Assembly (NCBI RefSeq): GCF_000428525.1
Contig: NZ_AUAC01000003.1
Location: forward strand, 682,001-746,000
Direction of reading: 5' to 3'
DNA length: 64,000 bases
Source of the DNA: Hellea balneolensis DSM 19091
Lineage (GTDB): Bacteria; Pseudomonadota; Alphaproteobacteria; Caulobacterales; Maricaulaceae
Shown here: one piece after another, positions 6,974-31,818 of the stretch
Position numbering within the stretch: the stretch's first letter is position 1
Layout of the letters: the number at the start of each line of letters is the position of its first letter
The notes under the pieces: model-generated
Told to the model about the DNA's origin: nothing
The model's database searches: none
Seen by the model: only the letters and a program-made list of their open reading frames with translations
Translations under genes and position numbers: made by a program

Positions 6974-7042
6974 TGCGTAGAAAATAAACCAAAAAAATAC
7001 GCAATATGTCCCTATAAGCGTGTTGATAATCGATAATGCGTA
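6974..7042 (+). promoter_or_regulatory. Three-part operator (site A)
   Basis: TGCGTA at 6974, TACGCA at 6998 (24 bp later) and TGCGTA at 7037 (39 bp after that), all exact. The first two form a dyad; the third repeats the first in direct orientation 63 bp away, close to six helical turns. It sits in the divergent promoter of the SDR pair and the acyl-CoA ligase operon; the third half-site ends 37 bases before the preferred ligase start. Five other sites in the window have the same two spacings. Confidence 0.8.
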
Positions 7043-7079
7043 ATATAGGTTAGGTCTAAGTGATGAATTGAACCGCTCT

Positions 7080-8783
7080 ATGAAACAATCTGACCCCAAT
7101 ATCACGGCCCTTACGGCCCCCGGCGCGCCTTTTGAAGTCGTGAGCGCATATGTTTTGGGGCATGACATGCGAGTCTTCAAAAATGCGCCTGAAAATCTGG
7201 CGGATATATTCCAAGAGGCCCGGCGTCATGGGGGGGCTGAGTTTGTGACTTTGGGCGAGACGTGCCTGACATTTGATGCATTTTTTGATCAGGCGGATCG
7301 CCTATCTGGATGGCTACAAAATACGGCTAATATCTCGCCTGGGCAGTCTGTGGCGATTTGTATGAAAAATTGCCCTGAATGGATGGCGGCCTTCGTCGCC
7401 ATTTCAAATATTGGCGCCGTCCCGGTGTCCATAAATAGTCGGGGTGAAGGGGCTGTCATGTCTTATGCTGCTGAAGATGCGGATAGCGTCTTTGTGATAG
7501 CTGACGCCAAGCGATTACGCGCCTTACGTGAGGCGGGGTGTGACTTACCCGCAATTTGTGTTGCTAATGAAAGCGATGAGGCGTCGATAGGCGTTACGTC
7601 ATATGCTGACGTGATGACATCAACACCCGATTACACATCTACAGTTCGGAAAACCGATAACCCTGCGGCGATGTTCTTTACCTCTGGCACGACAGGGCGA
7701 GCAAAAGCGGCGGTGATGACTCACCGAAATATTATTACGGGTCTTTTAACGACGCAAATGGCGATTGCGTCTATATCTATGACGATGGCTGAGCAATATG
7801 GGATGACCGTCGAGGCGCTAAAAGCTCATATGCCGCAAAGTTGCTCCGCGATGATTTTTCCGCTCTTTCATGTTAGCGGCTGTATATCGACCTTTCTTTC
7901 GTCGCTGGCTTCGGGGGGTAAGCTTGTGATGATGAACCACTGGAATGCTCAAGAGGCTTTGCGCCTAATCGAAGCTGAAAAAATAAGTAGTTTCGGGGGC
8001 GTGCCCACCATGCATTGGGATTTAGTCAAGGCTGCAAAAAATACAAAACATGATTTGAGTTCTCTTAGGGCTCTATCTTGCGGCGGCCAAGCGCTGCCTT
8101 TGGGGCTGCTTGCCGAAATTCGAGAGACATTCCCTAATGTTATTATTGGGGCAGGCTATGGAATGACAGAAGCGAGTGGCGCTGTTTCGCAAGCGACAGG
8201 TGAGGGTATCACTTCTCGCCCTAAAGCGTCAGGCCAGAAACTAGCCATGATTGATATTAAGGTTACGGATGATGAGGGGCAAGTTTTGCCCGAGGGCGAA
8301 ATTGGAGAATTTTGGGTGCGAGGCCCCACGGTGATAAAAGAATATCACCGCCGGCCAGAGGCTAATGCCAAATCCTTTAAAGACGGGTGGTATCGGACGG
8401 GCGATATTGGGAAGCTTGACTTGGATGGTTATTTGACTGTGGTGGACCGTAAGACGGATATGGTCATTTCAGGCGGCGAGAATATTTACTGTGCTGAGGT
8501 TGAGCAGGCATTGGGGCGTCATCCCGCTGTGCGTCAGGTCACAACATTTGGCGTGGCTGATGATCGCTTAGGCGAGCGCCTCGTGGCAGGGTTTGTTGTT
8601 GATGGACAGGTCACGCCGGATGAATTGATGGACTATGCGAAAGATAATCTCGCAGCCTATAAGGTTCCAACAGATATCATCCTTAAAGCCAACTCTTTTG
8701 CGCTTAATGCTATGGGTAAAGTTGAAAAACATAAAGTTCGCGCGGCCTACCTGGCGCGCAAAGAGAAAGAGCAGGCCGCGTAA
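7080..8783 (+). CDS. AMP-forming acyl-CoA ligase (FadD-like)
   Basis: A 567-residue ANL-superfamily ligase. The phosphate-binding loop is FFTSGTTGRAKAAVMTH, followed by YGMTEASG (A5), GWYRTGDIG (A7) and VVDRKTDMVISGGENIYCAE (A8-A10 region); the catalytic lysine is in NAMGKVEKHKV. It activates a carboxylic acid with ATP and CoA. In this setting the substrate may be a steroid side-chain or ring-derived acid. The ATG at 7080 is preferred over a TTG at 7068 because it has the same distance to the third half-site as in the SnoaL gene promoter. First gene of an operon with amidohydrolase, Rieske and crotonase genes; its stop overlaps the next start. Confidence 0.85.
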   Translation: MKQSDPNITALTAPGAPFEVVSAYVLGHDMRVFKNAPENLADIFQEARRHGGAEFVTLGETCLTFDAFFDQADRLSGWLQNTANISPGQSVAICMKNCPEWMAAFVAISNIGAVPVSINSRGEGAVMSYAAEDADSVFVIADAKRLRALREAGCDLPAICVANESDEASIGVTSYADVMTSTPDYTSTVRKTDNPAAMFFTSGTTGRAKAAVMTHRNIITGLLTTQMAIASISMTMAEQYGMTVEALKAHMPQSCSAMIFPLFHVSGCISTFLSSLASGGKLVMMNHWNAQEALRLIEAEKISSFGGVPTMHWDLVKAAKNTKHDLSSLRALSCGGQALPLGLLAEIRETFPNVIIGAGYGMTEASGAVSQATGEGITSRPKASGQKLAMIDIKVTDDEGQVLPEGEIGEFWVRGPTVIKEYHRRPEANAKSFKDGWYRTGDIGKLDLDGYLTVVDRKTDMVISGGENIYCAEVEQALGRHPAVRQVTTFGVADDRLGERLVAGFVVDGQVTPDELMDYAKDNLAAYKVPTDIILKANSFALNAMGKVEKHKVRAAYLARKEKEQAA

Positions 8784-9664
8784 TGGGCTATCCCAAAGAT
8801 ATCAAAATCATCGATACGATGCTGGGTATTCCGACCCATGCGGACCGTTCGGGCTGGTATGACAGCTTCCGCCCGTTGCTCAATGATCAGCAAAGCCGCG
8901 ACATGTTTAAAATGCCTGCGCAATATATGTTTAAAGACATTCCAGAGGCCTCTTCTGATGTCTCGGACTTTGTCGGCTGGACGATTGCGCAAATGGATAA
9001 GCACAATATCGACAAGGCGATGGTCGGCTTTAATGAGGATGAGACTTCGCGCCAAGCCGCGAAAGATTATCCTAATCGGTTCCTTTTTGATTTGCCCTGC
9101 AATCCCAATAACGGCATGGACGAAGTACGCCGCGTTAAACGTCTCCATGCAGAATATGGGATTAAATCCGTTTCCGTGTTTCCGGCGGGCACATGTCCAC
9201 AAGTCGCGATAAATGATGCGCGTATGTATCCGCTTTATGCCTGCTGCGTAGAGCTCGATATTCCGATTGTACTCAATGTCGGCGTTCCAGGCCCGCGCAT
9301 TCCGATGCACACGCAAAAGGTCGAGCATTTAGATGAGGTTTGTTGGTTCTTCCCAGAGCTTAAAGTTGTGATGCGCCACGGCGCTGAGCCTTGGGAAGAT
9401 TTGGCTGTTAAGCTGATGATAAAATACCCAAACCTGTATTATTCGACGTCCGCTTTTGCGCCCAAGCATTATCCCAAAGCGATAATTGATTACGCCAATA
9501 CGCGCGGTGCAGATAAGATTATTTATGCTGGTTACTTCCCTATGGGTCTTAGTCTTGACCGAATTTTCAAAGATATGGAAAATGTGCCGCTTAAAGATGA
9601 GGTTTGGCCCAAATTCCTACGTGAAAACGCCATGAAATTATTTAAATTAGGAGACTATGCATGA
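8783..9664 (+). CDS. Amidohydrolase_2-family protein with degenerate metal site
   Basis: A 293-residue TIM-barrel protein resembling the amidohydrolase_2 family (aromatic acid decarboxylases, hydrolases). The fold features are clear, for example the FPAGTCPQVAINDARMYPLY segment and the strand KVVMRHG with H199. However the usual N-terminal HxH is replaced by D11-T-M-L, the barrel histidine in the PIVIHVG-type strand is Asn165 (PIVLNVG), and the C-terminal metal Asp region reads YAGYFPMG. It may therefore be metal-independent, use other ligands or have a non-hydrolytic role. It is translationally coupled to the ligase before it and the Rieske gene after it, so it likely acts on the same substrate. 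Confidence 0.72.
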   Translation: MGYPKDIKIIDTMLGIPTHADRSGWYDSFRPLLNDQQSRDMFKMPAQYMFKDIPEASSDVSDFVGWTIAQMDKHNIDKAMVGFNEDETSRQAAKDYPNRFLFDLPCNPNNGMDEVRRVKRLHAEYGIKSVSVFPAGTCPQVAINDARMYPLYACCVELDIPIVLNVGVPGPRIPMHTQKVEHLDEVCWFFPELKVVMRHGAEPWEDLAVKLMIKYPNLYYSTSAFAPKHYPKAIIDYANTRGADKIIYAGYFPMGLSLDRIFKDMENVPLKDEVWPKFLRENAMKLFKLGDYA

Positions 9665-10773
9665 CCTCCAATACCACAGCCCATGTCGCCGTTTGGGAAC
9701 AGCTGAAAGGCTTGAGAGGCGAAGAACTTACGGCATGGCGCATGAACCCTGTTGAAAACCGCGCCACTGTCAAAGAACGTAATTTAGACACGCTTCCCCT
9801 ACCATTTGGTTGGTTCATGGTGGCTTATTCTGATGAGCTTGCCGTGAATGAGGTCAAGCCGCTTTATTACTTTGGCAAAGACCTCGTGCTGTGGCGCGGC
9901 GAAGATGGACAGGCCCGCGTCGTCGATGCCTATTGCAAACATCTTGGCGCGCATATGGGCTATGGTGGCCGCGTTAAAGGTAACTCGCTTGAATGTCCAT
10001 TTCATGCTTGGGAATATAATGGCGAAGGGGCTGTTGTTGCTGTGCCTTACGCTAAAAAAGTCCCGCCATCTGCAGCCCGTCCGTGCGAGGCACAGTGGAG
10101 AGTTGTTGAGAGTAATAAGCAAATTCTTGTTTGGTATCATCCATTCAACGAAGCGCCGAAATGGGAGCCTGAGAGTTTCGACCAAGTCCACGACCCTGAG
10201 TGGACGGAGTATAAAAAATACGAATGGATCGTGTATGGCCCTGTTCAGAATATGGCAGAGAACGGCGTCGATGCCGCGCATTTTAAGTATATTCATGGTA
10301 CCGATAGTTTCCCTGACTATGATTTCGAATTTGACGGACACATTCGCAAAGCCAATGTTGAAGCTAAAATGCCGACGCCGAAAGGTGTTGTGGATGGCAC
10401 GATTGCTTACGGCACAGTCGGAGCTGGGCAAAGTTGGACAAAGTTCTCAGGCATCTCAGAGACACTCATGATTGCAGGCATCACGCCCATCGACCAAGAG
10501 CGCACCCATATTCGTTTTGCTTTTACTCAGCCTAAGTCAGAAGCTGAAGGGCCTATGGCAAATCTGGCGACGGCCATGCGCCGCGAAATTTGCAAACAGC
10601 TCGACCAAGATAAAGTTGTCTGGGACCGCCAGAAATATATGCCCAAGCCGAGTATTTGCGATGGTGATGGGCCCATACTGCCATTCCGAAAATTCTTTGC
10701 ACAGTTCTATGCTGAGTGGGGGGATGATACGAAGAAGATCACTAAGCTTAAAATCGATAAGAAAGCCAGTTAA
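9661..10773 (+). CDS. Rieske oxygenase of the KshA/DAF-36-Neverland type
   Basis: A 370-residue Rieske non-haem iron oxygenase. Rieske ligands are C92/H94 and C112/H115 (normal 17-residue spacing); the iron site is D204, H207 and H212 in ENGVDAAHFKYIH. The motifs GWFMVAYSDELA, YFGKDLVLWRG and ECPFHAWEYNGEG resemble the sterol-acting KshA and DAF-36/Neverland groups. It could be a second 9alpha-hydroxylase for different steroids, or hydroxylate or desaturate another position. It overlaps the amidohydrolase gene by four bases and abuts the crotonase gene. No reductase partner is nearby. Confidence 0.82.
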   Translation: MTSNTTAHVAVWEQLKGLRGEELTAWRMNPVENRATVKERNLDTLPLPFGWFMVAYSDELAVNEVKPLYYFGKDLVLWRGEDGQARVVDAYCKHLGAHMGYGGRVKGNSLECPFHAWEYNGEGAVVAVPYAKKVPPSAARPCEAQWRVVESNKQILVWYHPFNEAPKWEPESFDQVHDPEWTEYKKYEWIVYGPVQNMAENGVDAAHFKYIHGTDSFPDYDFEFDGHIRKANVEAKMPTPKGVVDGTIAYGTVGAGQSWTKFSGISETLMIAGITPIDQERTHIRFAFTQPKSEAEGPMANLATAMRREICKQLDQDKVVWDRQKYMPKPSICDGDGPILPFRKFFAQFYAEWGDDTKKITKLKIDKKAS

Positions 10774-11541
10774 TTGGCGGTCATAGAGATCAGCGCTGAC
10801 GGGCCGATAACCTCAATTCGGCTTAATCGCCCGGATGCAATGAACGCCATTACCAATGAGATGCATAACCTCTTGGATAAGGCTTTTGATGATTTTGCGG
10901 CTGATACGACCCAACGCATTGCCGTCATATCTGGGGCGGGCGACCGCGCTTTTTGCGCCGGAAGCGATCTTAAGGACGGCATTGGCAAGCACTATCCGCG
11001 AGGAGGCTATGCGGGACTGATTGAGCGCTTCGATCTCTCCAAGCCAGTGATTGCCGCTGTGGACGGTTTTGCGCTAGGCGGCGGCTTCGAATTAGCGCTC
11101 GCCTGTGATCTCATTATTGCCACTAACCGCGCGAGTTTTGGCTTGCCAGAGCCGCTTGTCGGGGCGGTTGCATTGGGCGGAGGATTACACAGACTGCCGC
11201 GCCAAATAGGCTTAAAGCAAGCCATGGGGCTTATTCTTACGTCTCGCCGCGTTAGTGCTGATGAGGGCTATCGTATGGGTTTTGTCAACGAAGTCGTGCC
11301 GCATGACAGATTGGAAGAGACAGTTTCAGGCTATTGCAAAGATATTCTAAAAGGCGCACCAATTGCGATAGAAGCCTCTAAGATGACAGTTCAAAGGGGG
11401 CTGAGTGAAGACAGCTTAAAAGAGGCGATGAAAGCGCAGGAAAGCTATCCGGAATTTACGACATGGCGCAAGAGTGAGGACGCAATAGAAGGCATAAAAG
11501 CCTTCGCGAAAAAAAGAAAGCCTCAGTGGACAGGGCGATAA
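10774..11541 (+). CDS. Enoyl-CoA hydratase/isomerase family protein (crotonase)
   Basis: A 255-residue crotonase. The oxyanion-hole segments are visible as DRAFCAGSDLKDG and VDGFALGGGFELALACD, and the closing helix region FTTWRKSEDAIEGIKAF is normal for hydratases. It would hydrate or isomerise a CoA-linked intermediate made after the ligase two genes upstream. The start is a TTG directly after the TAA of the Rieske gene; the next in-frame ATG would remove the first beta-strand, so the TTG is preferred and translation is probably coupled. Usual family length. Confidence 0.84.
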   Translation: MAVIEISADGPITSIRLNRPDAMNAITNEMHNLLDKAFDDFAADTTQRIAVISGAGDRAFCAGSDLKDGIGKHYPRGGYAGLIERFDLSKPVIAAVDGFALGGGFELALACDLIIATNRASFGLPEPLVGAVALGGGLHRLPRQIGLKQAMGLILTSRRVSADEGYRMGFVNEVVPHDRLEETVSGYCKDILKGAPIAIEASKMTVQRGLSEDSLKEAMKAQESYPEFTTWRKSEDAIEGIKAFAKKRKPQWTGR

Positions 11542-11566
11542 ATAGATAAACCATAAGGGGAAAATT

Positions 11567-13486
11567 ATGTTAAAAAAACTATGCTTAGGAAGCGCAGCGT
11601 TGAGTGCGGTTTTATTGGCGTCTTGCGGAGACAAACCTGCGCCCAAAGAGGTGAAAGAGGTTGTCGCGGCCATAAAAATTGACCCCGCTACGATAGAACG
11701 AACGCCGACTAAAAATGCTTATTTTGGTGACCTGCATGTGCATACTAAAAACTCTTTTGATGCCTTTATTACGGGGACCCGAACAACAGCAGATGATGCG
11801 TATCGCTTTGCCAAAGGCGCGACCATTGATAATGGCGCTGGAAAAGACATAACAATTTCAGGGCCTCCTCTGGATTTTTACGGGGTTACAGATCATGGCG
11901 AATATATGGGCGTCGTTGCCGCGATGCGGGATAAGGATAACCCCATTTCAAAATCAGAAACAGCCAAGTCTATTTTTGGTATTTTTGGCGGTGGACGCGA
12001 TGCACGGATGCAGGCTTTCATGAAAGTCGGCACGACGATTGTCACGGGTGAACCGCTCGAAGACATTTATGACCGCGAGTTCATCGATAGCGCTTGGGCA
12101 GAAAATGTGGCGGCGGCGGAGAAGCATAATGAGCCTGGCATTTTCACGACTTTTGCGGCCTATGAATATACCAATATGAATATTATTGGCGATATTGATG
12201 ATAATTTCGGCGCCACGAATTTGCACCGCAATGTCGTGTTTCGGGACAAAGCACCGACCCGTCTTTTTACAACGCTTGATTCGACCAATCCTGAGAACTT
12301 ATGGGAGTGGATGAATGAGCAGCGGGCGAACGGGATTGATGTTCTCGCCATTCCGCATAATTCCAATGCGTCAAACGGGCAGATGTTTGCGATGACCACA
12401 ACGGATGGCTCGCCGCTGACCAAAGCCTATGCTGAAAACCGTATGTTAAATGAACCTATTGTCGAAATGACACAGGTCAAGGGCACGTCCGAAACCCATC
12501 CGCTTTTGTCACCTGAAGACGAATTCGCGGATCATGAGCTTTATGAAATTCTTGTTGGGATGCCCGTCCCTGCAGAAAAGGTTCCGGGCAGTTTTGTCCG
12601 TCAAGCTTTGTCGCGAGGCATCGGACTTGAGGGTGAACTGGGCGCAAACCCATATGCTTTTGGGTTTATCGGATCTACTGATGCGCATGTAAGCTCGTCT
12701 TCTTTGTCAGAAGAAAATTTCTTCGGAAAATTCCCGCATGATACAGAGCTGAGCAATCGCCGCTCTATTCCGCCTAAGGGCGCGAAGACCTGGGAAGATG
12801 CGCAGGCTGAAGAGGGCGACTTGGATATAATTTCAACCGCACAATATGGGGCGTCTGGTCTGGCGGGTGTTTGGGCGAAAGCGAATACGCGGGACGAAAT
12901 TTTTGACGCGATGGCAGCCAAGGAAACTTTTGCGACATCAGGCCCGCGCCTCAAGACGCGTTTCTTTGCGGGCGCTTATTCAGACGATATTTTGTCCTCT
13001 TCCGATATGCTGGAGCAAGCCTATGCTAATGGCAGTCCGATGGGCGGTAATATTGAGGGCGGCGAGGCATCCCCTGACTTTATCGCTTGGGCGATTAAGG
13101 ACCCGGAAGGCTATCCTTTGCAGCGCATTCAAGTTGTTAAAGTTTGGTCCGAGGGCGGTAAGAATATGGAACGAATTTATGACGTTGCTTGTGCGGGTGG
13201 GGCCGCGCCTGACCCTGTCACGCGCCGCTGTCCTGATAATGGCGCTAGGGTTGATTTGGAGACATGTAAAACAAATGACGAAACAGGAAGCGGAGAGTTA
13301 AAGGCGCTTTGGAGCGATCCTGATTATCAGGCCGGACAGAGCACAGCCTATTATTTGCGCGTTCTTGAAAATCCGAAATGCCGGTGGAGTACATGGGATG
13401 CGATGCGCAATGGCACGCCGCCTAATCCTGATATGCATGCGACCTTACAGGACCGGGCTTGGAGCTCTGCGATTTGGGTTCAATAG
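11567..13486 (+). CDS. DUF3604 lipoprotein (PHP-like metal site)
   Basis: A 639-residue protein with a lipoprotein signal: a basic and hydrophobic N-terminus and the lipobox LLASC with the modified cysteine at residue 21. The mature part is a DUF3604 protein: the metal-type motif YFGDLHVHTKNSFDA follows near residue 53, then FYGVTDHGEYMG, LAIPHNSNAS and IGSTDAH, all reminiscent of PHP-like hydrolases. Function of the family is not established; a hydrolase acting in the periplasm or on the outer membrane is an inference. It lies 25 bases after the crotonase gene and likely ends that operon. Confidence 0.8.
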   Translation: MLKKLCLGSAALSAVLLASCGDKPAPKEVKEVVAAIKIDPATIERTPTKNAYFGDLHVHTKNSFDAFITGTRTTADDAYRFAKGATIDNGAGKDITISGPPLDFYGVTDHGEYMGVVAAMRDKDNPISKSETAKSIFGIFGGGRDARMQAFMKVGTTIVTGEPLEDIYDREFIDSAWAENVAAAEKHNEPGIFTTFAAYEYTNMNIIGDIDDNFGATNLHRNVVFRDKAPTRLFTTLDSTNPENLWEWMNEQRANGIDVLAIPHNSNASNGQMFAMTTTDGSPLTKAYAENRMLNEPIVEMTQVKGTSETHPLLSPEDEFADHELYEILVGMPVPAEKVPGSFVRQALSRGIGLEGELGANPYAFGFIGSTDAHVSSSSLSEENFFGKFPHDTELSNRRSIPPKGAKTWEDAQAEEGDLDIISTAQYGASGLAGVWAKANTRDEIFDAMAAKETFATSGPRLKTRFFAGAYSDDILSSSDMLEQAYANGSPMGGNIEGGEASPDFIAWAIKDPEGYPLQRIQVVKVWSEGGKNMERIYDVACAGGAAPDPVTRRCPDNGARVDLETCKTNDETGSGELKALWSDPDYQAGQSTAYYLRVLENPKCRWSTWDAMRNGTPPNPDMHATLQDRAWSSAIWVQ

Positions 13487-13509: not shown

Positions 13510-13578
13510 TACGCATTTTAAGAAAACGACGTCTAAAATCTGGTGAAATGCGCAGAAATAGATAGACTAAATTTCGCA
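13510..13578 (-). promoter_or_regulatory. Three-part operator (site F) upstream of the Lrp/AsnC genes
   Basis: Read on the minus strand: TGCGAA (13573-13578), TGCGCA (13549-13554) and TGCGTA (13510-13515). The spacings, 24 and 39 bp, are identical to the five other sites, although two half-sites differ from consensus by one or two bases. It lies between the DUF3604 gene and the first Lrp/AsnC gene, 85 bases before its start, which suggests autoregulation. Confidence 0.65.
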
Positions 13579-13663
13579 AAAATGACTTTTATAATGATGC
13601 AGCTATAGAGTTGTGTTTGACACCACGTTATGTATAGAGCGCAGCGCAAGCAAGAGGGCCAAT

Positions 13664-14128
13664 ATGTCTGACAGTCATTTCCAATTCACTGATTTGGATA
13701 ATTCTATTATCGCAATCTTAAAAGTGGATGGCCGCACGAGTAATCAGAAGATTGCGGATGAGCTCGGCGTGACGACATCCATGGTAGCGACACGAATAAA
13801 GCGTATGGAGCAATCCAAGGCGATGAAGGTTGTTGCTGTCTCTGATTTTTCCGCTTTTGATTATAATGTGCTTCTGCCTATTGGTGTGGACGTGAAAGGG
13901 CGGCGGGCCAATGATGTGGCAGGTGATATTGCAAAACTTGACGAAGTGGCTTCAGTCCAACTTGTGACCGGAAAACACGATATTGAAATCCTCGTAACGC
14001 TATCGAGTATGGATAAAATGTCCGATTTTCTTCTGAGTAAATTATCGCAAATTAAAGGTGTGCGCAGCCTTGATCCCAGCTTTGCCGTTGACATCATTAA
14101 ATATGATTTTGACGTAGCCCCGATCTAA
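13664..14128 (+). CDS. Lrp/AsnC-family transcriptional regulator
   Basis: A 154-residue regulator of normal Lrp/AsnC size. The N-terminal helix-turn-helix is LDNSIIAILKVDGRTSNQKI to RIKRMEQS (about residues 10-55) and the C-terminal RAM/ligand domain follows (LVTGKHDIEILVTLSS is its characteristic central segment). Such proteins form dimers to octamers and bend or wrap DNA. The ATG at 13664, preceded by AAGAGG, is chosen over an upstream GTG. It is paired with a second paralogue ten bases downstream and preceded by a three-part operator. Inferred: local regulator of the steroid genes and of itself. Confidence 0.88.
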   Translation: MSDSHFQFTDLDNSIIAILKVDGRTSNQKIADELGVTTSMVATRIKRMEQSKAMKVVAVSDFSAFDYNVLLPIGVDVKGRRANDVAGDIAKLDEVASVQLVTGKHDIEILVTLSSMDKMSDFLLSKLSQIKGVRSLDPSFAVDIIKYDFDVAPI

Positions 14129-14137
14129 GAGGCGAAC

Positions 14138-14632
14138 ATGAGTGATTACAGAATAGACGATCTTGACCAACAAATTATCCAGCTTCTTTCCGAGGATGCG
14201 CGGCTTTCAAACCGTAAAATAGCTACGCAATTAGGATTTACCGAAGGGACTATTCGTTCACGGGTCAAACGTCTTGAAGACGAGAACTACATACGCTTCA
14301 CAGCCGTGACAAACATGTCCCATCTGGATACGCCGCAACTTGCCTATATTGGCATTCATGCAGAACAAAAAATGATAAAAGAAGTCGCAGCAAAAGTGGC
14401 TGAGCTGTCTGAGATAAATGCCGTCATTATCCTGCTCGGACGATTTGATATTTTAGCGATTGGCCTATTTGAAGGGCTTTCAGCTGTGCACCAAGTCGCG
14501 AGTAACAAGATACTCGATATTAAAGGCGTTCGTCTTGTGGAGACATCTGTTGTAGTGGATGTTGTCAAATATGATAACCGCGTTGCAAAGATCATGACGC
14601 CTATCGCGGAATATGTTGCAGCGGCTGAATAG
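14138..14632 (+). CDS. Lrp/AsnC-family transcriptional regulator (second paralogue)
   Basis: A 164-residue Lrp/AsnC protein: HTH at IDDLDQQIIQLLSEDARLSN to RVKRLEDEN, and C-terminal RAM domain with AVIILLGRFDILAIGLFEG. It differs clearly from its neighbour, so this is an old duplication or a co-opted partner rather than a recent copy. Known Lrp paralogues can form mixed oligomers; with two genes in one transcript, a hetero-oligomer could suit the asymmetric three-part operator seen at six promoters. The ligand may be a steroid acid, CoA thioester or amino acid; the sequence does not tell. Confidence 0.88.
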   Translation: MSDYRIDDLDQQIIQLLSEDARLSNRKIATQLGFTEGTIRSRVKRLEDENYIRFTAVTNMSHLDTPQLAYIGIHAEQKMIKEVAAKVAELSEINAVIILLGRFDILAIGLFEGLSAVHQVASNKILDIKGVRLVETSVVVDVVKYDNRVAKIMTPIAEYVAAAE

Positions 14633-14639
14633 TAAGCAC

Positions 14640-15602
14640 ATGCAGCCGCGTTTGTTTTTGATTTTGACATTCTTCGGATTGATGGGGTGTGAAGGGGCAA
14701 CTGATCCAAAACCAAATAAACCTCAGACTAACGCCAGGTGGACTGCGCTTTCTGGCGGATGTTTCGAGATGGGTGAAACGCGGATTTACCGCGAAGAGAC
14801 ACCTGTGGTTAAGATATGTTTAGAGCCTTTTGAAATCTGGTCTCATGAAATTTCAAATAAAGAATTTTCTGCTTTCGTAAATGCAACAGGTCACAAGACA
14901 CGCGCGGAAATGGGATGGAACGCGAGTGATACAAGAGGCCCAGGCATTGACGTGGTGCCTAGTTCCGTAGTTTTTGTTTCGCCTGAAACGCCAAAGAATT
15001 TAAATTGGTGGAAACTTACGGCTGGTGCTAACTGGCAAAATCCTTTGGGTCCTGAGAAAGATGGTTTTGAGTTCCAAGCTCCCGTCGTTCATATCACCCG
15101 CGAAGATGCGGCGGCTTATGCGGATTGGGCTGGAGGGCGGTTGCCGACTGAAGCGGAATGGGAATATGCGGCGCGAGGCGGCCTCAATGGGGCGCTGCTG
15201 AGTTGGTCTGAAGCTGAGAACGCAGCATTACAGGATAAGGCAAATACATGGGAGGGCGTCTTTCCGGTCATAAATTCCAAAGAAGACGGCTATGCAAGTG
15301 TTGCCCCTGTAGGCAGCTATCCGCCTAATGGTTTTGGGCTTTATGATATGATCGGGAATGTTTGGGAGTGGACATCATCGACCTATTATCCGACTCACGC
15401 GCTGGGTGAGGGGGCAAAGCTCTATCCCGATGGTTATGATTCAGCTCAAGGAGACATTCCCGTAGGCGTTATAAAGGGCGGCTCATTTTTATGTGCGCGG
15501 TCTTATTGCTATCGTTATCGTCCTGCCGCGCGTCAGCCGCAGGACCTTATTTTCGGAACATCTCACATCGGGTTTCGTATCGTGAGAGATAAAGCCGAAT
15601 AG
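14640..15602 (+). CDS. Formylglycine-generating enzyme (FGE-sulfatase family) lipoprotein
   Basis: A 320-residue SUMF1-type protein with a lipoprotein signal (hydrophobic start, lipobox LMGC) when read from the ATG at 14640; an ATG at 14613 would add nine residues and overlap the regulator gene. The C-terminal KGGSFLCARSYCYRYRPAAR holds C285 and C290, the pair that matches the catalytic copper-binding cysteines of true formylglycine-generating enzymes. Earlier segments (GGCFEMGETR, WAGGRLPTEAEWEYAARGG, GNVWEWTSS) are family hallmarks. FGE oxidises a cysteine of type I sulfatases to formylglycine. Export of a catalytically complete FGE is unusual, and no sulfatase gene is visible in the window. 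Eight bases after the second Lrp gene. Confidence 0.85.
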   Translation: MQPRLFLILTFFGLMGCEGATDPKPNKPQTNARWTALSGGCFEMGETRIYREETPVVKICLEPFEIWSHEISNKEFSAFVNATGHKTRAEMGWNASDTRGPGIDVVPSSVVFVSPETPKNLNWWKLTAGANWQNPLGPEKDGFEFQAPVVHITREDAAAYADWAGGRLPTEAEWEYAARGGLNGALLSWSEAENAALQDKANTWEGVFPVINSKEDGYASVAPVGSYPPNGFGLYDMIGNVWEWTSSTYYPTHALGEGAKLYPDGYDSAQGDIPVGVIKGGSFLCARSYCYRYRPAARQPQDLIFGTSHIGFRIVRDKAE

Positions 15603-15604: not shown

Positions 15605-17299
15605 CTAGGCTGAGAGAGAATTGGCCGCACGGCGTCCAGAATAAACGCAATCTGCTATCGACAGTCCACTGACGTAACTCCACGAGGCCACACCAATCGC
15701 GTTGCGTCCCGCTGCGTAAAGCCCTATGATTTCTTCGCCACCTTCATCAAGAACGCACCCCGTGCTTTCATTCACTTTCAGTCCTCCTAATGTCAGAGTC
15801 GGACAGGGGAAGAGCTTCGCCGAGAGGCTGATATCAATAGCCACAAGAGAGCCTTCATCAAGCTGGGCTAAGTCGTCTTGTGTTTTCTCGAAGGGGTCCT
15901 TTATTTCGCCTCTGGCCATTTTATTATACTCGGATAATTGCGTTTCGAGATTATCTCCATCCACCTTAATTATGGCTGCGAGCTCTGATATTGATTTCGC
16001 TTTCTTAGCGCCAAAATAGGCATTGAGCTTGGCGAGGGCCCGCTGAAAAGCCAGTGCCTTATCCCCTTTCACGTCTTCCAAGGCCTGCTTGATCAATTTG
16101 CGGTCTAATATCATCCATGCGCGTCCATTGTGATTTTCCGTCATCTCTACACCAAGCGTCGCGCCGTAAACCATTTCATTGATGAAACGCTGCCCATTTT
16201 CATTGACGATCATGCCGCGCGCAAATGAAAGAGGCGGGTTGATAAAGCGCCAAGCCGTGATGCGGTTCATATTCTCAGCAGCTCCGCCCACGCTTTGTCC
16301 CAAGCGGATACCAGCGCCATTATCTCCATCGGTTCCAAGCGGATAGGCGGCAGTATATTTAGGCGCATAATGCGCCATCATTTTTGAATTAAAGACAAAG
16401 CCTCCCGCCGACAGCACAACGCCCTTATCCGCCCTAATAAATATTTCGGTGCGGGAACTCGCTAATTCTTCGGCTTTCTTCAAATGCCCCATCGCTTTTT
16501 TGAAAAAAAACTTTGAACCTGGAATAATTGGCGGGAACATCGCAAAGAGCTTATTGGCTTTTGCTCGAAGCGTCTTGTAGTTTTCAAGTGTTTCAGCCTT
16601 TTCAAACTGTAGGGCTTTAACACCTATTACGTCACCTACCGCATTGGTCACAAGCTGACGGACTTCGGTATAAGACAGCACCCTCAGGCCCTTGGCTTCG
16701 GCGCTGGCTTTTAAAGGGTCGAAAATAGATCCCCCTAGATTAGTGGCTTTTGCACCCTGTTTAATCGGAACATAGCCACGATGTCCCCGCGCGGCAGGGG
16801 CGGCATGTTTTTTATAGCTTGGAACAAGGCTGTTATCGCTGTGATAGAGAAAATATTTCGGGGCAGGATAAGAGGTTTTATGTGGCCACAAGGTTCCTCG
16901 AAGGTCCACTTTGTGCTCTTTGAGCCATTCAATGGTTGGCGCACTTTGCTCGCAAAAATCCCGCAATGTTGCGTCTGACACAATCCCTTCTGTTTCCAGC
17001 TTCAGATAATTGAACATGTTTTCGGCTGTGTCTTCAACGTCGGCTTCTTTTTGCGTAGATGTTCCCCCGCCGGCATAAATAACCCCGCCGCTCGCTTTCG
17101 TGGCGCCTCCGCCTTCAAAACGGTCCAAAGCGATAACAGATAATCCATTTTCTATCGCTTGAAGAGAGGCCGAAACGCCCGCTCCGCCGAGACCTATCAC
17201 GACAACGTCAGCTTTATCTGTCCAGTCAAGATCATCCGCTGAGCCGACATTCAGAGGCGCTTCAATATCAGAATGCCAATTCTTATTATCTGGTGTCAT
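15605..17299 (-). CDS. FAD-dependent 3-ketosteroid dehydrogenase (KstD/Kst4D family)
   Basis: A 564-residue flavoprotein. The FAD dinucleotide fold is ADVVVIGLGGAGVSASLQA near residue 32, followed by GGGATKASGGVIYAGGG, as in 3-ketosteroid dehydrogenases. The C-terminal FAD segment is LYAAGRNAIGVASWSYVSGL. It would desaturate ring A of a 3-ketosteroid at C1-C2 (KstD) or C4-C5 (Kst4D); I cannot decide between the two, and the C-terminal motif leans to the 4(5alpha) type. It is divergent from an SDR operon across a three-part operator oriented towards it, and converges on the FGE gene. Confidence 0.8.
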   Translation of the reverse strand: MTPDNKNWHSDIEAPLNVGSADDLDWTDKADVVVIGLGGAGVSASLQAIENGLSVIALDRFEGGGATKASGGVIYAGGGTSTQKEADVEDTAENMFNYLKLETEGIVSDATLRDFCEQSAPTIEWLKEHKVDLRGTLWPHKTSYPAPKYFLYHSDNSLVPSYKKHAAPAARGHRGYVPIKQGAKATNLGGSIFDPLKASAEAKGLRVLSYTEVRQLVTNAVGDVIGVKALQFEKAETLENYKTLRAKANKLFAMFPPIIPGSKFFFKKAMGHLKKAEELASSRTEIFIRADKGVVLSAGGFVFNSKMMAHYAPKYTAAYPLGTDGDNGAGIRLGQSVGGAAENMNRITAWRFINPPLSFARGMIVNENGQRFINEMVYGATLGVEMTENHNGRAWMILDRKLIKQALEDVKGDKALAFQRALAKLNAYFGAKKAKSISELAAIIKVDGDNLETQLSEYNKMARGEIKDPFEKTQDDLAQLDEGSLVAIDISLSAKLFPCPTLTLGGLKVNESTGCVLDEGGEEIIGLYAAGRNAIGVASWSYVSGLSIADCVYSGRRAANSLSA

Positions 17300-17345: not shown

Positions 17346-17414
17346 TACGCAAAAGCAAGAAAATAGAGTTCTTTTATCTTAGAATACGTAAAATACAGAC
17401 AAAAATATTGCGCA
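17346..17414 (-). promoter_or_regulatory. Three-part operator (site D)
   Basis: Read on the minus strand: TGCGCA (17409-17414), TACGTA (17385-17390) and TGCGTA (17346-17351), with spacings of exactly 24 and 39 bp. The first two are the centre of a longer dyad, AGAATACGTA and TGCGCATTCT. Its third half-site is 46 bases from the KstD start, so it points to KstD while also lying in the promoter region of the divergent SDR operon. Confidence 0.72.
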
Positions 17415-17473: not shown

Positions 17474-18352
17474 ATGCCAAATCCAAAAGTTGCTATCGTT
17501 ACAGGTGCCAGCCGTGGTGCGGGTAAAGGCATTGCTCTTGGCCTCGCGGAAAAAGGTATGACGGTCTATGTGACGGGCCGCACCAGAAAGGCCGGAAAGG
17601 CCAAAGGGTGGGACGGTACACCGCTACCTGGAACAGTTGAGGAGACGGCTCAGGCCTGCACGAATGCTGGTGGAAAAGGCATTGGCGTTATCTGTGATAG
17701 CGCGGATGATGCCCAAGTCGCACAGCTTTTTGAGCAAGTCATGGATGAGCAGGGGCAGTGTGATATTTTGATGAATAATGCGGCCTATATTCACCATCAA
17801 CTGATTGAGCAAAAGCCGTTTTGGGATAAGGAACTCGACGCGCAAAACATTCTCGATGTCGGTCTGCGCTCAGCTTATGTTGCGAGCTGGCATGCGGCTA
17901 AAATTATGGCAAAGCAAAAGCGCGGCCTTATTGGAATGGGGTCTTCCTTTGGCGCGAGTTGTTATATGCACGGTCCCGCCTATGGCGCTCAAAAGGCAGG
18001 GCTTGATAAGCTCGCCCATGACATGGCTGTCGATTTGGAGCCCTTTAATGTTCAGGCGGTATCGATCTGGATGGGGCCACTCTTAACGGAACGCGCACTG
18101 ATAGCAGCAGAGGTCCACCCTGAACAATATAAAGAGTTTATGGAGATGGCAGAGACGCCTCAATTTACGGGTCATATACTCTATGCGATTGCGACAGACC
18201 CCAAGGCCCAAGAGATAAGCGGACACACACTTGTTGGCGCCGAAGTCGCAAAGGATCGTTACAAAATGAAAGACGGAAACGGGAAACAACCGCCGAGCCA
18301 CCGCGAAATGCTCGGCTCACCTAACCCGCCCAATCCAGCGCGGGTTTATTAA
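17474..18352 (+). CDS. Short-chain dehydrogenase (DHRS1-like)
   Basis: A 292-residue SDR. Cofactor motif VTGASRGAGKGIALG at the N-terminus, NNAAY motif, and catalytic region GMGSSFGASCYMHGPAYGAQ followed by K. The arrangement with TVYVTGRTRKAGKAKGWDGT and GTVEETAQACTNAGGKG resembles the DHRS1 group, longer at the C-terminus than classical SDRs. DHRS1-type enzymes reduce steroid and other ketones with NADP(H). First of five tightly packed genes (SDR, small membrane protein, MFS, hydrolase, sulfotransferase). Confidence 0.85.
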   Translation: MPNPKVAIVTGASRGAGKGIALGLAEKGMTVYVTGRTRKAGKAKGWDGTPLPGTVEETAQACTNAGGKGIGVICDSADDAQVAQLFEQVMDEQGQCDILMNNAAYIHHQLIEQKPFWDKELDAQNILDVGLRSAYVASWHAAKIMAKQKRGLIGMGSSFGASCYMHGPAYGAQKAGLDKLAHDMAVDLEPFNVQAVSIWMGPLLTERALIAAEVHPEQYKEFMEMAETPQFTGHILYAIATDPKAQEISGHTLVGAEVAKDRYKMKDGNGKQPPSHREMLGSPNPPNPARVY

Positions 18353-23459: not shown

Positions 23460-24410
23460 CTACCATAATTCAGGAATATCTGAGCCTGTTATGTCGATGA
23501 GTCTTTTCATGAATTTACTAGCCTCAGCTAATTCTTCATCCGTAAAGTGTTTTAATAATTGTTCTTCGAGCGCTTTTGAGTGGGCAAGAAGCTTGATAAA
23601 GGTCTCGCGTCCGCTTTCGCTGATATGCACATTTTTTCCATCGCGATTGATCCAACTCTTGCGGAGCAAGCGTGCAAAAATTTCCGCGTCAGGATGGTGC
23701 CCCGTATGTTCAAGTCGTATAACAATATCATCTTCAGATAGTGACCCACTCATTGCAAGCAAAGACAAGCAGAAATATTCCGCTTCGCTCATACCTATTT
23801 CGCGGCAAGCTTTGCGTGTCGGGTAGCTAGTTTGAAAATGAGCGCGTGATAGAAGATAAAGCAGGAAGTCATCTGAAAATTGACCACTGTTTAAATCAAC
23901 TCCCGGACGGGCTGGTGTAGCAGGGGCGGATTTTTGCTTGGCTTCTGCATATTTTCCGCCGTGAAAGACCAAAACAGGAAAGTTATGTGTTTGATACTCT
24001 ATGACCTCGCCGACAAAAATGATGTGATCTCCACCCTCATATTGGAAATGCGTTTTACATCTGAATAGCGCGGCATATTCAGGCAATAGTGGAAAGCCGT
24101 TCTCGCAAGGCACCCAATCTATGTCTTTAAATTTATCATCAGAAGGGCGCGCGAATTGATTTGACAAATCGCTCTGATGGCTGGCTAACACATGGACGTT
24201 AAAGCCGCCGCTATTCTGATAGGCGGGCATGGAGTGCGCTGTCTTGGCGAGGGACCAAAGCACTAAGGGAGGGTCGAGCGAGACTGAGTTAAAACTGCTT
24301 GCTGTCACGCCGACAGGCTTAGCGTCATTATCCAGAGTTGTCACAATCGTAACACCCGTCGCAAACTGTCCAAGCGCGTTTCGAAATTGGTGTGGATCAG
24401 GTTCAGACAT
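23460..24410 (-). CDS. hsaB: HsaB-like flavin reductase fused to a MarR-like domain
   Basis: A 316-residue fusion. Residues 1 to about 160 are a flavin reductase domain (FRNALGQFATGVTIVTT, VGVTASSFNSVSLDPPLVLW, FHGGKYAE) of the kind that supplies reduced flavin to HsaA. Residues 175 to 316 look like a MarR winged helix (LSLLAMSGSLSEDDIVIRL, ESGRETFIKLLAHSKALEEQLL). A similar fusion is known in the reductase of Acinetobacter 4-hydroxyphenylacetate hydroxylase, where the MarR-like part senses substrate and controls activity. Hence a substrate-gated reductase for 3-HSA hydroxylation is inferred. An earlier frame start is ignored because the family begins at this methionine. A three-part operator starts nine bases upstream. 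Confidence 0.82.
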   Translation of the reverse strand: MSEPDPHQFRNALGQFATGVTIVTTLDNDAKPVGVTASSFNSVSLDPPLVLWSLAKTAHSMPAYQNSGGFNVHVLASHQSDLSNQFARPSDDKFKDIDWVPCENGFPLLPEYAALFRCKTHFQYEGGDHIIFVGEVIEYQTHNFPVLVFHGGKYAEAKQKSAPATPARPGVDLNSGQFSDDFLLYLLSRAHFQTSYPTRKACREIGMSEAEYFCLSLLAMSGSLSEDDIVIRLEHTGHHPDAEIFARLLRKSWINRDGKNVHISESGRETFIKLLAHSKALEEQLLKHFTDEELAEASKFMKRLIDITGSDIPELW

Positions 24411-24418
24411 TATAAATT

Positions 24419-24487
24419 TGCGTAGGAAACATAAGGTAAAAATACGCAAAATAAGATATTTGTCAAAAGAATAGCTAGAAATGCGTA
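24419..24487 (+). promoter_or_regulatory. Three-part operator (site B)
   Basis: TGCGTA at 24419, TACGCA at 24443 and TGCGTA at 24482, all three exact, with spacings of 24 and 39 bp. It fills the divergent promoter region between the hsaB-like gene and the SnoaL-like gene. The third half-site ends 38 bases before the SnoaL start, matching the 37 bases at site A. Confidence 0.82.
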
Positions 24488-26207: not shown

Positions 26208-26231
26208 TTGGTTTCTTGTTAGTCGTGAATA

Positions 26232-26876: not shown

Positions 26877-26877
26877 C

Positions 26878-28910: not shown

Positions 28911-29377
28911 TTTTGAAGTCCTTTATTGAGAAGAGTCTGCGCTTCGTCTTCGCCAATAACGCGGCTTTCGCGGCGCGCAATTTTCCAACTCTCTTCTTTG
29001 CGCATAGTCCAACTATTCACGGCAAGACGCATGAGTTTCTGATTGTGATAGACTCGCGAGTAACCCAAGACACTCGCTGAATGGCCGTCCACCTCGACGA
29101 GGAGGGGGCCAACCGTGTGGGCACAATTTGGGAGTAGAGATTGATGTATCTCAGAGCTCAGCATGTCCGAAATTGCGCTGTGTCCCTTCAGTTCTAAGTC
29201 GCCTGTCACGTCGCCGCGCCCAGCATTAGGATTGCTCACGACATAAACCGCGTCTTCCATATGGCAGGCGAGGGCCGTTTCAATATCGCCGCAATCCGCC
29301 GCCATGCCGTAACGCGCTATGACGTTGCGAATAGCAAGTTCCGCTTCAACGCGGCTAATGCGATCTTCCAAACTCAT
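28907..29377 (-). CDS. SnoaL-like protein
   Basis: A 156-residue single SnoaL/NTF2-like domain: LEDRISRVEAELAIRNVIAR, ARYGMAADCGDIETALACHM, HTVGPLLVEVDG and SWKIARRESRVIGED follow the family order. Unlike the ketosteroid isomerase near 49.7 kb it lacks the Tyr/Asp/Asp set, so it is not a standard isomerase. Overlaps both neighbours by four bases in an SDR-SnoaL-MFS-crotonase operon. Confidence 0.78.
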   Translation of the reverse strand: MSLEDRISRVEAELAIRNVIARYGMAADCGDIETALACHMEDAVYVVSNPNAGRGDVTGDLELKGHSAISDMLSSEIHQSLLPNCAHTVGPLLVEVDGHSASVLGYSRVYHNQKLMRLAVNSWTMRKEESWKIARRESRVIGEDEAQTLLNKGLQK

Positions 29378-30129
29378 CCTAATTTATGCGCCTCTTCAGC
29401 AATCTTAAGAAAGCTCGGAGGTTCGCCGCCACCAAAAACTTCAAGGCAAGCCCCTGAGATATAGCTGTTGGATGGTTCTGCGAGAAAGAGGCAAGCTTTA
29501 GCAATGTCTTCGGGCGCGCCCATGCGGCCCATAGGAAGATTGCTCGCCAGATGCGCCATGCCTTTTTTGCCGCCATAATGATCTGTGCTAGCTTCGGTTT
29601 TGACGAGGCCAACAATGATTGCGTTGACGCGAATGTCAGGAGCCCATTCCATCGCCAGCGATGTTGTCACGTTTAGAAGGCCCGCCTTTGCCGCACCATA
29701 AGCGACAGACCCCGGAGAACTGCGTGTGGCGGAGACGCTTGAAATATTCACAATAGACCCGCCAGACGCTTTAAGCGGTTCATAAGCCGCTTGCGCGAGA
29801 TTGATAGGCGCGAGCAGGTTAAGCGCAATAACCTTTTGCGTAAGATTCGGACTCGCATCTTTGCTAGCCACAGGTGGGCCTCCACCGGCATTGTTAATGA
29901 GGCAATCGACGCGCCCTGTTTTTTCAAGAGCAAAGCCTATGAGCGATTTGGCAGATTCTGCGTCTCTGATATCAAGCGGTATAAATTGCGTATTAACGGG
30001 CAGTGTCTCAGGCTTGCGGCGTCCGCATATAATAATATTTGCACCTTGCGCTGCAAAGCCTTCGGATATGCCGCGCCCAATACCGCGCCCACCGCCCGTA
30101 ACAATTATTGTTTTATCTTTGAATTTCAT
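29374..30129 (-). CDS. Short-chain dehydrogenase/reductase
   Basis: A 251-residue SDR beginning MKFKDKTIIVTGGGRGIGRG; an upstream frame extension is rejected because it would run through the operator and lacks family sequence. NNAGGG motif and catalytic region NISSVSATRSSPGSVAYGAA with K are present. First gene of the minus-strand operon. Its start is only eight bases from the first half-site of the three-part operator it shares with fadD3, so binding could directly block its expression. Confidence 0.84.
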   Translation of the reverse strand: MKFKDKTIIVTGGGRGIGRGISEGFAAQGANIIICGRRKPETLPVNTQFIPLDIRDAESAKSLIGFALEKTGRVDCLINNAGGGPPVASKDASPNLTQKVIALNLLAPINLAQAAYEPLKASGGSIVNISSVSATRSSPGSVAYGAAKAGLLNVTTSLAMEWAPDIRVNAIIVGLVKTEASTDHYGGKKGMAHLASNLPMGRMGAPEDIAKACLFLAEPSNSYISGACLEVFGGGEPPSFLKIAEEAHKLG

Positions 30130-30136
30130 TATGCCC

Positions 30137-30205
30137 CGCGTATTATTTCTGGGCATATGTTGCGCAAAATGAGAGGCTTGTATAGTCAAAGCCTTAAATT
30201 GCGTA
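30137..30205 (+). promoter_or_regulatory. Three-part operator (site C)
   Basis: CGCGTA at 30137, TGCGCA at 30161 and TGCGTA at 30200, with spacings of exactly 24 and 39 bp. It covers the divergent promoter between the SDR operon and the long fadD3-to-ketosteroid-isomerase operon. The third half-site ends 13 bases before the fadD3 start, closer than at sites A and B. Confidence 0.75.
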
Positions 30206-30218
30206 GAGTTTAGTATTA

Positions 30219-31733
30219 ATGACCACGATACCACAGCTTTTATTTGACCAAGCCGCGCGGCGTCCTAATGCGCTTGCGATTGAGGATGGGACGTGGCGTT
30301 TAAGCTATGGTGAGTTAGCCGGGCTCGTTAAAGACGCCGCAGGTGTAATGCAGCACATGGGTTTGGCACGGGGCGACAAATTTGGGATATGGGCCCCAAA
30401 TTGCGCGGAATGGATTATCACGGCTCTCGCGGGGCAAATGCTCGGGGCCGTTATGGTGACGCTCAATACGCGATATAAAGGCATGGAAGCCGCCGATATA
30501 TTGCGCCGCTCTAAGTGTAAGTTTGTCTTCACCGTGCAAGGATTTTTAAATCACGATTACCCGGCCATGCTCAGCGGATGTGACGTCGGAGATTTGAGAG
30601 AAGTCGTCATTGTTCGTGGGAACGTCGGGCGAGAGGTTTTTAACACATTTCTGACGAGAGGCGGCGAGTCTGTTAAAATAGCAGACGTAAGAGACGGCGA
30701 TATTTCCGACATTATCTTCACCTCAGGAACAACGGGAACGCCCAAAGGCGCAATGACAACTCATGCGCAAAATGTGCAAGTTTTTGAAAGTTTCACTGAC
30801 GCTATCGGCATGACCGAAGATGATCGTTATCTAGTGGTCAATCCCTTCTTTCATAGCTTTGGATATAAGGCGGGCTGGCTGTCCTGCATCATCAAGGGAG
30901 CAGCTATTTTTCCTTTGGCGGTTTACGATCCAAAAAATGTGTTGGAGCGCATTGAGCGCGATAAAATTACGGTCATGCCGGGCGCCCCCACGATTTTCCA
31001 AACCCTCCTCGCGCATCCTGATATTAAAAAACATGATATCTCAAGCCTTCGCGTGGCAACAACGGGGGCAACGACTATTCCCGTGGACCTTATTTGCGCC
31101 ATGCATGAAGACCTTGGTATCGATGATGTTTTTTCGGCTTATGGATTGACCGAATCCACGGGTGTCGTGTCGCTCTGCCAGAAGGGCGATGATTTCGAGA
31201 CGATTGCGACGACTTGCGGGCGGCCTTTACCAGGTACGGAATTGCGCATTGTTGATGATAGCGGAGAAGGTGTCGAAAGCGGCGAAGAGGGTGAGATTTG
31301 GGTGCGTGGCTTTAATGTGATGCAGGGCTATTTAGATATGCCCGAAGCCACGGCAGAGACGATTACGCCTGACGGTTGGCTCAAGACTGGAGATATAGGC
31401 ACGCAGGATCAGAAAGGGTATATCAAAATCACCGACCGTAAAAAAGATATGGTGATTGTCGGAGGCTTTAACGTCTATCCGGCTGAGGTTGAGCAGTCAC
31501 TTCTAAGGCATCCTGCTATTTCTGATGCTGCCGTGATTGGTATGTCGGATGATCGCCTCGGTGAGGTTACGCAGGCGCACATTGTAACGTCAAAAGTGCT
31601 TGATGAAGACCAACTTGTAAAATGGTGCTGTGAAATCATGGCGAATTACAAAGTGCCCCGCAGCATAAAATTTCACGACTCTTTGCCCAGAAATGCCTCG
31701 GGTAAGGTCATGAAGTATATGCTAAAAGCGTAA
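30219..31733 (+). CDS. fadD3: HIP-CoA ligase (FadD3-like)
   Basis: A 504-residue ANL ligase, almost exactly the length of mycobacterial FadD3. Motifs: FTSGTTGTPKGAMTTH, YGLTESTGVVS, GWLKTGDIG, ITDRKKDMVIVGGFNVYPAE and the catalytic lysine in NASGKVMKYML. FadD3 activates HIP, the propionate-bearing indanedione left from rings C and D, with CoA. Assignment rests on length, motifs and on the HsaA-to-IpdF genes that follow. About 120 bases and another three-part operator separate it from hsaA. Confidence 0.84.
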   Translation: MTTIPQLLFDQAARRPNALAIEDGTWRLSYGELAGLVKDAAGVMQHMGLARGDKFGIWAPNCAEWIITALAGQMLGAVMVTLNTRYKGMEAADILRRSKCKFVFTVQGFLNHDYPAMLSGCDVGDLREVVIVRGNVGREVFNTFLTRGGESVKIADVRDGDISDIIFTSGTTGTPKGAMTTHAQNVQVFESFTDAIGMTEDDRYLVVNPFFHSFGYKAGWLSCIIKGAAIFPLAVYDPKNVLERIERDKITVMPGAPTIFQTLLAHPDIKKHDISSLRVATTGATTIPVDLICAMHEDLGIDDVFSAYGLTESTGVVSLCQKGDDFETIATTCGRPLPGTELRIVDDSGEGVESGEEGEIWVRGFNVMQGYLDMPEATAETITPDGWLKTGDIGTQDQKGYIKITDRKKDMVIVGGFNVYPAEVEQSLLRHPAISDAAVIGMSDDRLGEVTQAHIVTSKVLDEDQLVKWCCEIMANYKVPRSIKFHDSLPRNASGKVMKYMLKA

Positions 31734-31749
31734 TTATCTGCGTCATCCT

Positions 31750-31818
31750 TACGCAAAGAGGCCTTTTGATGCCTTAAAAACTTGATTTTGCGTATTATAG
31801 GTCATTGAAAAATGCGCA
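31750..31818 (-). promoter_or_regulatory. Three-part operator (site E) upstream of hsaA
   Basis: Read on the minus strand: TGCGCA (31813-31818), TACGCA (31789-31794) and TGCGTA (31750-31755), spacings 24 and 39 bp. It lies between fadD3 and hsaA, 39 bases before the hsaA start. Here the site points away from the downstream gene, showing that its orientation relative to the transcript is not fixed. It suggests an internal promoter for the 18-kb hsa/ipd block. Confidence 0.75.

Follow-up and report, generated by a model that had tools for sequence, protein, structure and literature searches.

A fixed three-box operator in a steroid gene region of Hellea balneolensis and an adjacent Lrp/AsnC pair as its candidate reader

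The regulation of steroid breakdown is best known in Actinobacteria, where KstR and KstR2 act as TetR dimers on one short palindrome, and is known only in patches in Proteobacteria. For the archaeal Lrp family, the accessible part of PMC2995911 describes sites that are 13-17-bp imperfect inverted repeats spaced two or three helical turns apart, proteins that oligomerise, and, for Ss-LrpB of Sulfolobus, about 100 bp of DNA wrapped around three dimers. In Sphingobium sp. Chol11, two contiguous Lrp/AsnC genes lie in a bile-salt cluster (excerpt of PMC12882949). Here we describe a three-box operator in a 64,000-nucleotide stretch of the Hellea balneolensis DSM 19091 genome (the window, C2:682001-746000 in a 3.2-Mb genome of 10 contigs), where it stands beside steroid genes and in front of two tandem Lrp/AsnC genes, lrp1 and lrp2. 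We consider it likely that these sites control a regulon for steroid catabolism, serving as operators for the adjacent Lrp1 and Lrp2, which would bind singly or as a mixed oligomer, with a probably repressive effect. A sequence-only reading had proposed the operator type as undescribed, and no description of it was found in the open-access literature, which lacks most subscription papers.

Three-box sites in the window and the genome

Six sites of the form TRCGYA-24-TRCGYA-39-TGCGYA, the numbers giving the distance in bp between box starts, are present in the window (Table 1), four without a mismatch to the pattern and two with one, and their positions, strands and exact spacing are as first read from the sequence. 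Among 1326 unordered spacing combinations in the window at up to one mismatch, 24/39 gave six sites against two for the next best, and 300 dinucleotide shuffles of the window gave a mean of 0.0033 sites and a maximum of one at the same tolerance. The element at 3992 was likewise read correctly as a 24-bp dyad, and no third box was found for it in the home genome; at its counterparts between the same two gene families, a third box with one mismatch is present in G010, and G024 has a site with two mismatches in all. An unfiltered model scan of the window produced noise only to the right of 50 kb (best expectation value, E, 1.5), where the earlier reading had also seen no sites.

Table 1 Three-box operators, the dyad and the Lrp/AsnC genes in the window (SDR-like and acyl-CoA synthetase-like at 30137 were assigned by eye; CoA, coenzyme A; FAD, flavin adenine dinucleotide)
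Feature	Position	Strand	Boxes, domains or flanking genes
24-bp dyad only	3992..4021	no strand	OYE-family gene 2668-3909 (-) / MFS transporter gene 4043-5344 (+)
Three-part operator	6974..7042	+	boxes start 6974, 6998, 7037; SDR gene 6172-6936 (-) / acyl-CoA synthetase gene 7068-8783 (+)
Three-part operator	13510..13578	-	5′ of tandem lrp genes; plus-strand box starts 13573 (TTCGCA, 1 mismatch), 13549, 13510
Lrp/AsnC regulator 1 (Lrp1)	13613..14128	+	AsnC-type helix-turn-helix + ligand domain
Lrp/AsnC regulator 2 (Lrp2)	14138..14632	+	AsnC-type helix-turn-helix + ligand domain
Three-part operator	17346..17414	-	FAD dehydrogenase 15605-17299 (-) / SDR gene 17474-18352 (+)
Three-part operator	24419..24487	+	flavin reductase 23460-24416 (-) / SnoaL-like gene, start ~24526 (+)
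Three-part operator	30137..30205	+	SDR-like gene (-) / acyl-CoA synthetase-like gene 30219-31733 (+)
Three-part operator	31750..31818	-	5′ of HsaA-like operon (31840 onward)

A sequence-only model built from the six window sites was run on the whole genome, with 150 of 579 first-look candidates scored. It returned 22 matches at E ≤ 10, of which 19 fell on nine places: the dyad at 3992, the six window sites, and a further two that lie to the left of the window and were absent from model training. The first (C2:647449) has spacing 23/39 and lies 5′ of a FAD_binding_2 protein labelled KstD-like by eye, and the second (C2:660533) has spacing 24/39 and lies 5′ of a TonB receptor. Weak hits at C2:222404 (E 0.33), C1:301631 (E 0.83) and C1:1053076 (E 7.7) do not have three boxes and were discarded. 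All eight three-part sites of the genome thus fall in one steroid region, inside a stretch of about 66 kb, which supports the claim of a steroid regulon. Among the genes around the sites are those for HsaA-like and HsaD-like proteins, neither of which reaches the cut-off set by NCBIfam, for lower-pathway enzymes and for two Rieske proteins that carry a KshA C-terminal domain. For each of the eight operators, the nearest flanking start codon, as placed mechanically, is no more than about 75 bp away, and five of the operators are situated between divergent genes.

Site anatomy and co-occurrence with the Lrp/AsnC pair

From 83 candidates in 12 genomes, nine with other spacing or two mismatches were left out, and the resulting 74 sites with up to one mismatch are spaced 24/39 in 65 cases, 24/38 in six and 23/39 in three. 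Across 40 regions (603 kb), pairs of TRCGYA boxes were counted 68 times at 24 bp, 54 times at 63 bp and 49 times at 39 bp, against a background of 0.6 per other spacing in the same DNA, peaks that are not an independent test since most of the regions were picked by model match. In a matrix of 31 non-redundant sites (less than 60% identity to each other), the oriented half-site reads WW-TGCGTA-N-WWWW, with box 2 in the inverted form and box 3 oriented as box 1; the fifth base is T in 29 of the 31 for box 3, and in box 1 it is T in 22 and C in eight. The boxes, of sequence TRCGYA, are themselves near-palindromic and flanked by A/T, and the asymmetry of the flanks points to half-sites of a 30-bp dyad. 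A weak fourth box (at least 5/6 matches, with CG) follows box 3 by 23-24 bp in eight of the 31 sites, compared with 29 such boxes summed over all 93 offsets, an offset that was chosen after the profile was seen, though it is the one that symmetry predicts. Operator 31750 has a possible box of this kind (5/6) 23 bp past its third, at about 31727-31732. The weak fourth box hints at a 24-39-24 plan, in which the operator would be a pair of dyads and not a set of three equivalent boxes.

The identical layout at many loci might also be expected if the sites were left over from a repeated element, mobile or structural, an origin that we regard as highly improbable. The boxes and their A/T flanks are kept while the bases in between differ among sites of one genome; orthologous sites stay in place in five aligned gene families, with far less conservation outside the operator; and 77 of 82 rows with up to one mismatch (one row a duplicate) are intergenic by a mechanical open-reading-frame (ORF) caller, findings that together led to the rejection of a repeat element. 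Of the five rows scored as coding, two are the window sites 24419 and 30137, and the other three are equivalents of 30137. For the two window sites this is because two ORFs were extended to TTG and GTG starts, and 24419 is intergenic given the conserved start of the SnoaL-like gene and the start of the reductase (Table 1). The orientation of the operator to its target is constant within the gene families compared and differs between families, and one family has a TATAG stretch within its 33-bp gap.

Both Lrp1 and Lrp2 score above cut-off for PF13404 and PF01037 and have solved Lrp/AsnC relatives. On named contigs the closest relatives of Lrp1 (nine loci) are from Hellea and other Caulobacterales. 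At least one adjacent Lrp1-Lrp2 pair was found in 26 of 27 sources, the other being G168, which has Lrp1 alone; at one of two ES2-1 loci, the gene after Lrp1 encodes a flavin reductase. In Lrp2 the recognition helix (TEGTIRxRxKRL) hardly changes, and that of Lrp1 is more variable. Since the same box persists where Lrp1 has changed, Lrp2 appears the better candidate base reader, and it is more likely than Lrp1 to be the base-reading partner.

Co-occurrence was examined in 61 genomes, the home genome included, with stricter filtering than in the home-genome scan (strong site, best E < 1e-4; Lrp1, E ≤ 1e-15). Strong sites were present in 10 genomes and the tandem Lrp/AsnC pair in exactly those 10, and none of the 51 genomes without a pair at this threshold had a strong site, three of them (G020, G031 and G043) giving one weak model match each (E 0.018-0.059). 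Sites and pair also vary in step within the genera g1, g2 and g12 and, in the order-wide sample described below, within g9. An operator lies 5′ of lrp1 in eight of 12 genomes, with up to one mismatch in G000, G005, G009, G035 and G262/MAG75 and with two in G001, G002 and G006; MAG75 (L123) and G262 (L145), each of 133,533 bases, probably represent the same contig and share two site rows. The proposal that Lrp/AsnC proteins are candidate readers is thus strengthened by the pair in 10 of 10 site genomes, by the operator before lrp1 and by dyads near Lrp genes elsewhere, described below.

At the thresholds used, an HsaA-like gene was found in eight and a nearby TetR gene in seven of the 10 operator genomes, each in 0 of the other 51, and both track the sites less well than the Lrp pair does. 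The HsaA-like gene is missing from G003 and G024, drafts 76% and 89% complete, and the TetR gene was not found in these two or in G010, a single contig that is 100% complete and has sites. This bears on the possibility that a regulator encoded elsewhere, such as an IclR-type three-box reader or a TetR protein, reads the sites and that the Lrp pair is merely a target. A TetR gene does lie about 4 kb left of the window (L030:938-1684), and the available text of PMC8222616 describes a dyad plus an external direct half-site for the IclR regulators PcaU, PobR and HmgR. We nevertheless judge a reader of this kind unlikely. The nearby TetR was rejected since no copy was found in three of the 10 genomes, one of them complete; among 46 distinct genes scanned with Pfam, a part of those in the window and on its left flank, DNA-binding families scored above cut-off in this TetR and the Lrp pair only, a ParB-like helix-turn-helix at 53993-54757 falling just under it and three response regulators showing a receiver domain alone; the IclR consensus GTNCG-N5-6-CGNAC places half-sites about 10 bp apart, against 24 here; and the dyads recur beside Lrp pairs in other groups. 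The TetR gene belongs to a row left of the window (L030:938-4118, C2:676938-680118) that also holds a cytochrome P450 and a Rieske gene with a KshA C-terminal domain.

In an order-wide sample of 299 genomes, also scanned with stricter filtering, sites and Lrp occurred together in five, all of the home family. G199 has two diverged Lrp pairs and one weak model match. Diverged Lrp1 matches without any model match at E 0.001 were found in G172 and G168. HsaA-like genes (E ≤ 1e-80) were found in seven of the 299, these being the same five, G172, which has the gene and Lrp without the operator, and G263, which has neither an Lrp1 match nor a model match and in which no 24-bp dyad was found in the 33 kb around the HsaA-like gene.

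Dyads beside Lrp pairs outside the home clade

The search outside the clade began from Lrp1 homologs and not from the motif, save for G263, which was reached from its HsaA-like gene. A class sample of 385 genomes yielded, besides the home genome, Lrp1 homologs in G458 (66% identity) and in G632 and G553 (51%), and 22 plasmid records carried homologs, 21 of them from Sphingobium or Novosphingobium; eight plasmid stretches were examined. In the annotated intergenic DNA of pNL2, pMSHV, ES2-1 p1 and pTomTYG65a, box pairs at 24 bp (11) and 39 bp (6) lead those at 52 (5), 86 (5) and 63 (4), against a mean of 0.86, a tally in which the sites are not all independent since some look like orthologous pairs. 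In the remaining, non-intergenic DNA of these plasmids a single 24-bp pair was counted, the mean there being 2.3. Pooling 14 Lrp-bearing loci with the ORF caller gave 17 pairs at 24 bp, eight at 63, six at 39 and six at 52, some of the 39s and 63s (in G172, pEP1, G553 and GL140) being part of no dyad; one pooled tally takes in G263, which adds nothing at 24, 39 or 63. The 24-bp dyads fall in seven of the 14 loci (four in G199, three each in pNL2 and ES2-1, two each in G458, PP1Y and G632, one in pTom65a), and two of the four in G199 adjoin a TonB receptor and an acyl-CoA dehydrogenase-like gene.

At up to two mismatches, seven three-part sites by the ORF caller or 11 by annotation, overlapping readings included, occur outside the clade, in G458, pNL2, ES2-1 and PP1Y. 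This makes 24/39 the commonest of 1326 plans, the next reaching five and seven, respectively. The 24-bp dyad is therefore well supported outside the clade and is the most widely kept part of the operator, and the evidence for a third box there is suggestive. The two further sites in the home genome, the dyad as the most-kept part and the weak fourth box all go beyond the first reading.

Other plans were also seen near Lrp pairs. In intergenic DNA, mainly of sphingomonad plasmids, 24/28 and 24/52 recur (seven each with annotation), and in sphingomonads the third box may possibly have a different position. Exact inverted hexamers 24 bp apart were sought in low-GC stretches of L124 and L137-L141 and set aside, the five pairs being scattered over four of the six loci with none recurring. 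On three Sphingobium plasmids, pEP1, pSHV1 and pTomTYG65b (L161, L164 and L167), the Lrp1-Lrp2 pairs lie within about 20 kb of conjugation genes, and no 24-bp dyads were found in the stretches examined.

Several observations weigh against reading the sites as operators of Lrp1 and Lrp2. Shared descent and the steroid genes themselves confound the co-occurrence, and G263, 86% complete, was the sole case seen of steroid genes in a genome with no Lrp match. No operator 5′ of lrp1 with up to two mismatches is listed in G003, G010, G024 or the CALFUN genome. The ORF caller found no dyad in seven of the 14 Lrp loci (G553, GL140, G172, pEP1, pSHV1, pTom65b and pMSHV, the last showing one 24-bp dyad when its own annotation is used), and at up to one mismatch 24/39 is tied with other plans outside the clade, 3 vs 3. 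When all 74 sites are counted, redundant ones included, an extra box occurs most often at +37 (12), followed by +23 (11) and +24 (6). The spacings of 24 and 39 bp correspond to 2.3 and 3.7 turns, with 63 bp alone in phase, and depart from the whole-turn spacing given for archaeal Lrp sites in the available portion of PMC2995911. 

Proposed mechanism and comparison with known systems

The unit consists of two TGCGTA half-sites in inverted orientation, spaced by 24 bp and each bordered by an A/T tract on its inner side, and a second strong half-site stands on the same strand as the first, 63 bp or six helical turns away, sometimes with a weak partner 23-24 bp beyond. In a 24-39-24 plan, 63 bp (six turns of 10.5 bp) separate the centres of the two dyads. 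The operator may thus represent a pair of dyads on the same face of the DNA, of which the second has half decayed. This arrangement would suit linked dimers or tetramers that bend or wrap about 70-95 bp. Promoter cover is probable because the operators are near start codons, often in divergent gaps, and repression with autoregulation is the most likely mode because a bound complex would probably cover the promoters. A steroid-derived ligand would relieve the repression; PMC8546615, considered on the ligand question, concerns a TetR-like regulator in the part seen and was dropped.

Activation would differ from this explanation in its last step only, with Lrp at the sites recruiting polymerase to steroid promoters. 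The orientation kept within the gene families compared is in its favor, but the closeness of the home operators to start codons, the change of orientation between families and the TATAG stretch in the 33-bp gap suit occlusion, and we find activation doubtful. A bolder extension of the repressive Lrp1/Lrp2 scheme, offered tentatively, is that the two side-by-side paralogs form a ligand-sensing hetero-oligomer on a four-box 24-39-24 operator whose fourth box has weakened, as a widespread alphaproteobacterial steroid switch. If true, a hetero-oligomeric Lrp that senses steroid intermediates would be the counterpart of KstR in Caulobacterales and Sphingomonadales.

Some neighboring genes may be recorded here. 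A DUF3604 gene (Pfam; window 11567-13486, +) directly precedes the lrp pair, and look-alikes recognised by eye lie near both Lrp pairs of the distant G199 (L138:16831-18759 and L137:18466-19980). After lrp2, a formylglycine-generating-enzyme-like gene (window 14613-15602) and, near the outer operators, two sulfatase-like genes (L028:13599-15194 and L029:7363-8991), all assigned by eye, make sulfated steroids possible substrates. The interval from the KstD-like gene to the TonB receptor holds a cytosine-5 DNA methyltransferase-like gene and its partner (L028:15763-17743, by eye). The C-terminal ~150 residues of the flavin reductase at 23460-24416 (-) are not recognised by Pfam and look MarR-like by eye; this tail was dropped as a regulator, Pfam giving the flavin reductase domain alone, and a comparable autoinhibitory tail is known from another reductase.

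The analysis provides a candidate regulator pair and an operator distinct enough for regulon members to be recognised from their sequence alone. It also offers a naturally occurring example of several sites in a fixed geometry for what is probably an Lrp complex. Because plasmid pNL2 of Novosphingobium aromaticivorans DSM 12444 carries dyads of this kind, the scheme can be tested in a named strain.

Like KstR and KstR2, the system described here would control steroid catabolism, with a different operator layout, and the nearby TetR is not conserved with the operator, having been found in seven of the 10 operator genomes and not in the complete G010. The IclR three-box operators of PcaU, PobR and HmgR serve catabolic genes and share the layout of a dyad plus an external direct half-site, boxes 1 and 2 being inverted and box 3 parallel to box 1 in the sites described here, but their core and much shorter spacing, as given in the accessible part of PMC8222616, differ from the TGCGTA core and 24-bp spacing found here. 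No IclR domain was seen in the 46 genes scanned with Pfam, regulators elsewhere in the genome not having been searched for. Paired Lrp/AsnC genes within a steroid cluster are shared with Sphingobium sp. Chol11, for which the excerpt of PMC12882949 describes no operator or regulon. The Ss-LrpB control region, as described in the available part of PMC2995911, is similar in its regulator family and in having several sites, three for Ss-LrpB, in a fixed layout before the regulator gene. Each of its sites, however, is a repeat of 13-17 bp for one dimer, two or three turns from the next, whereas the Hellea operators consist of oriented half-sites at 24/39 bp, extend over a whole catabolic regulon and accompany two adjacent Lrp genes.

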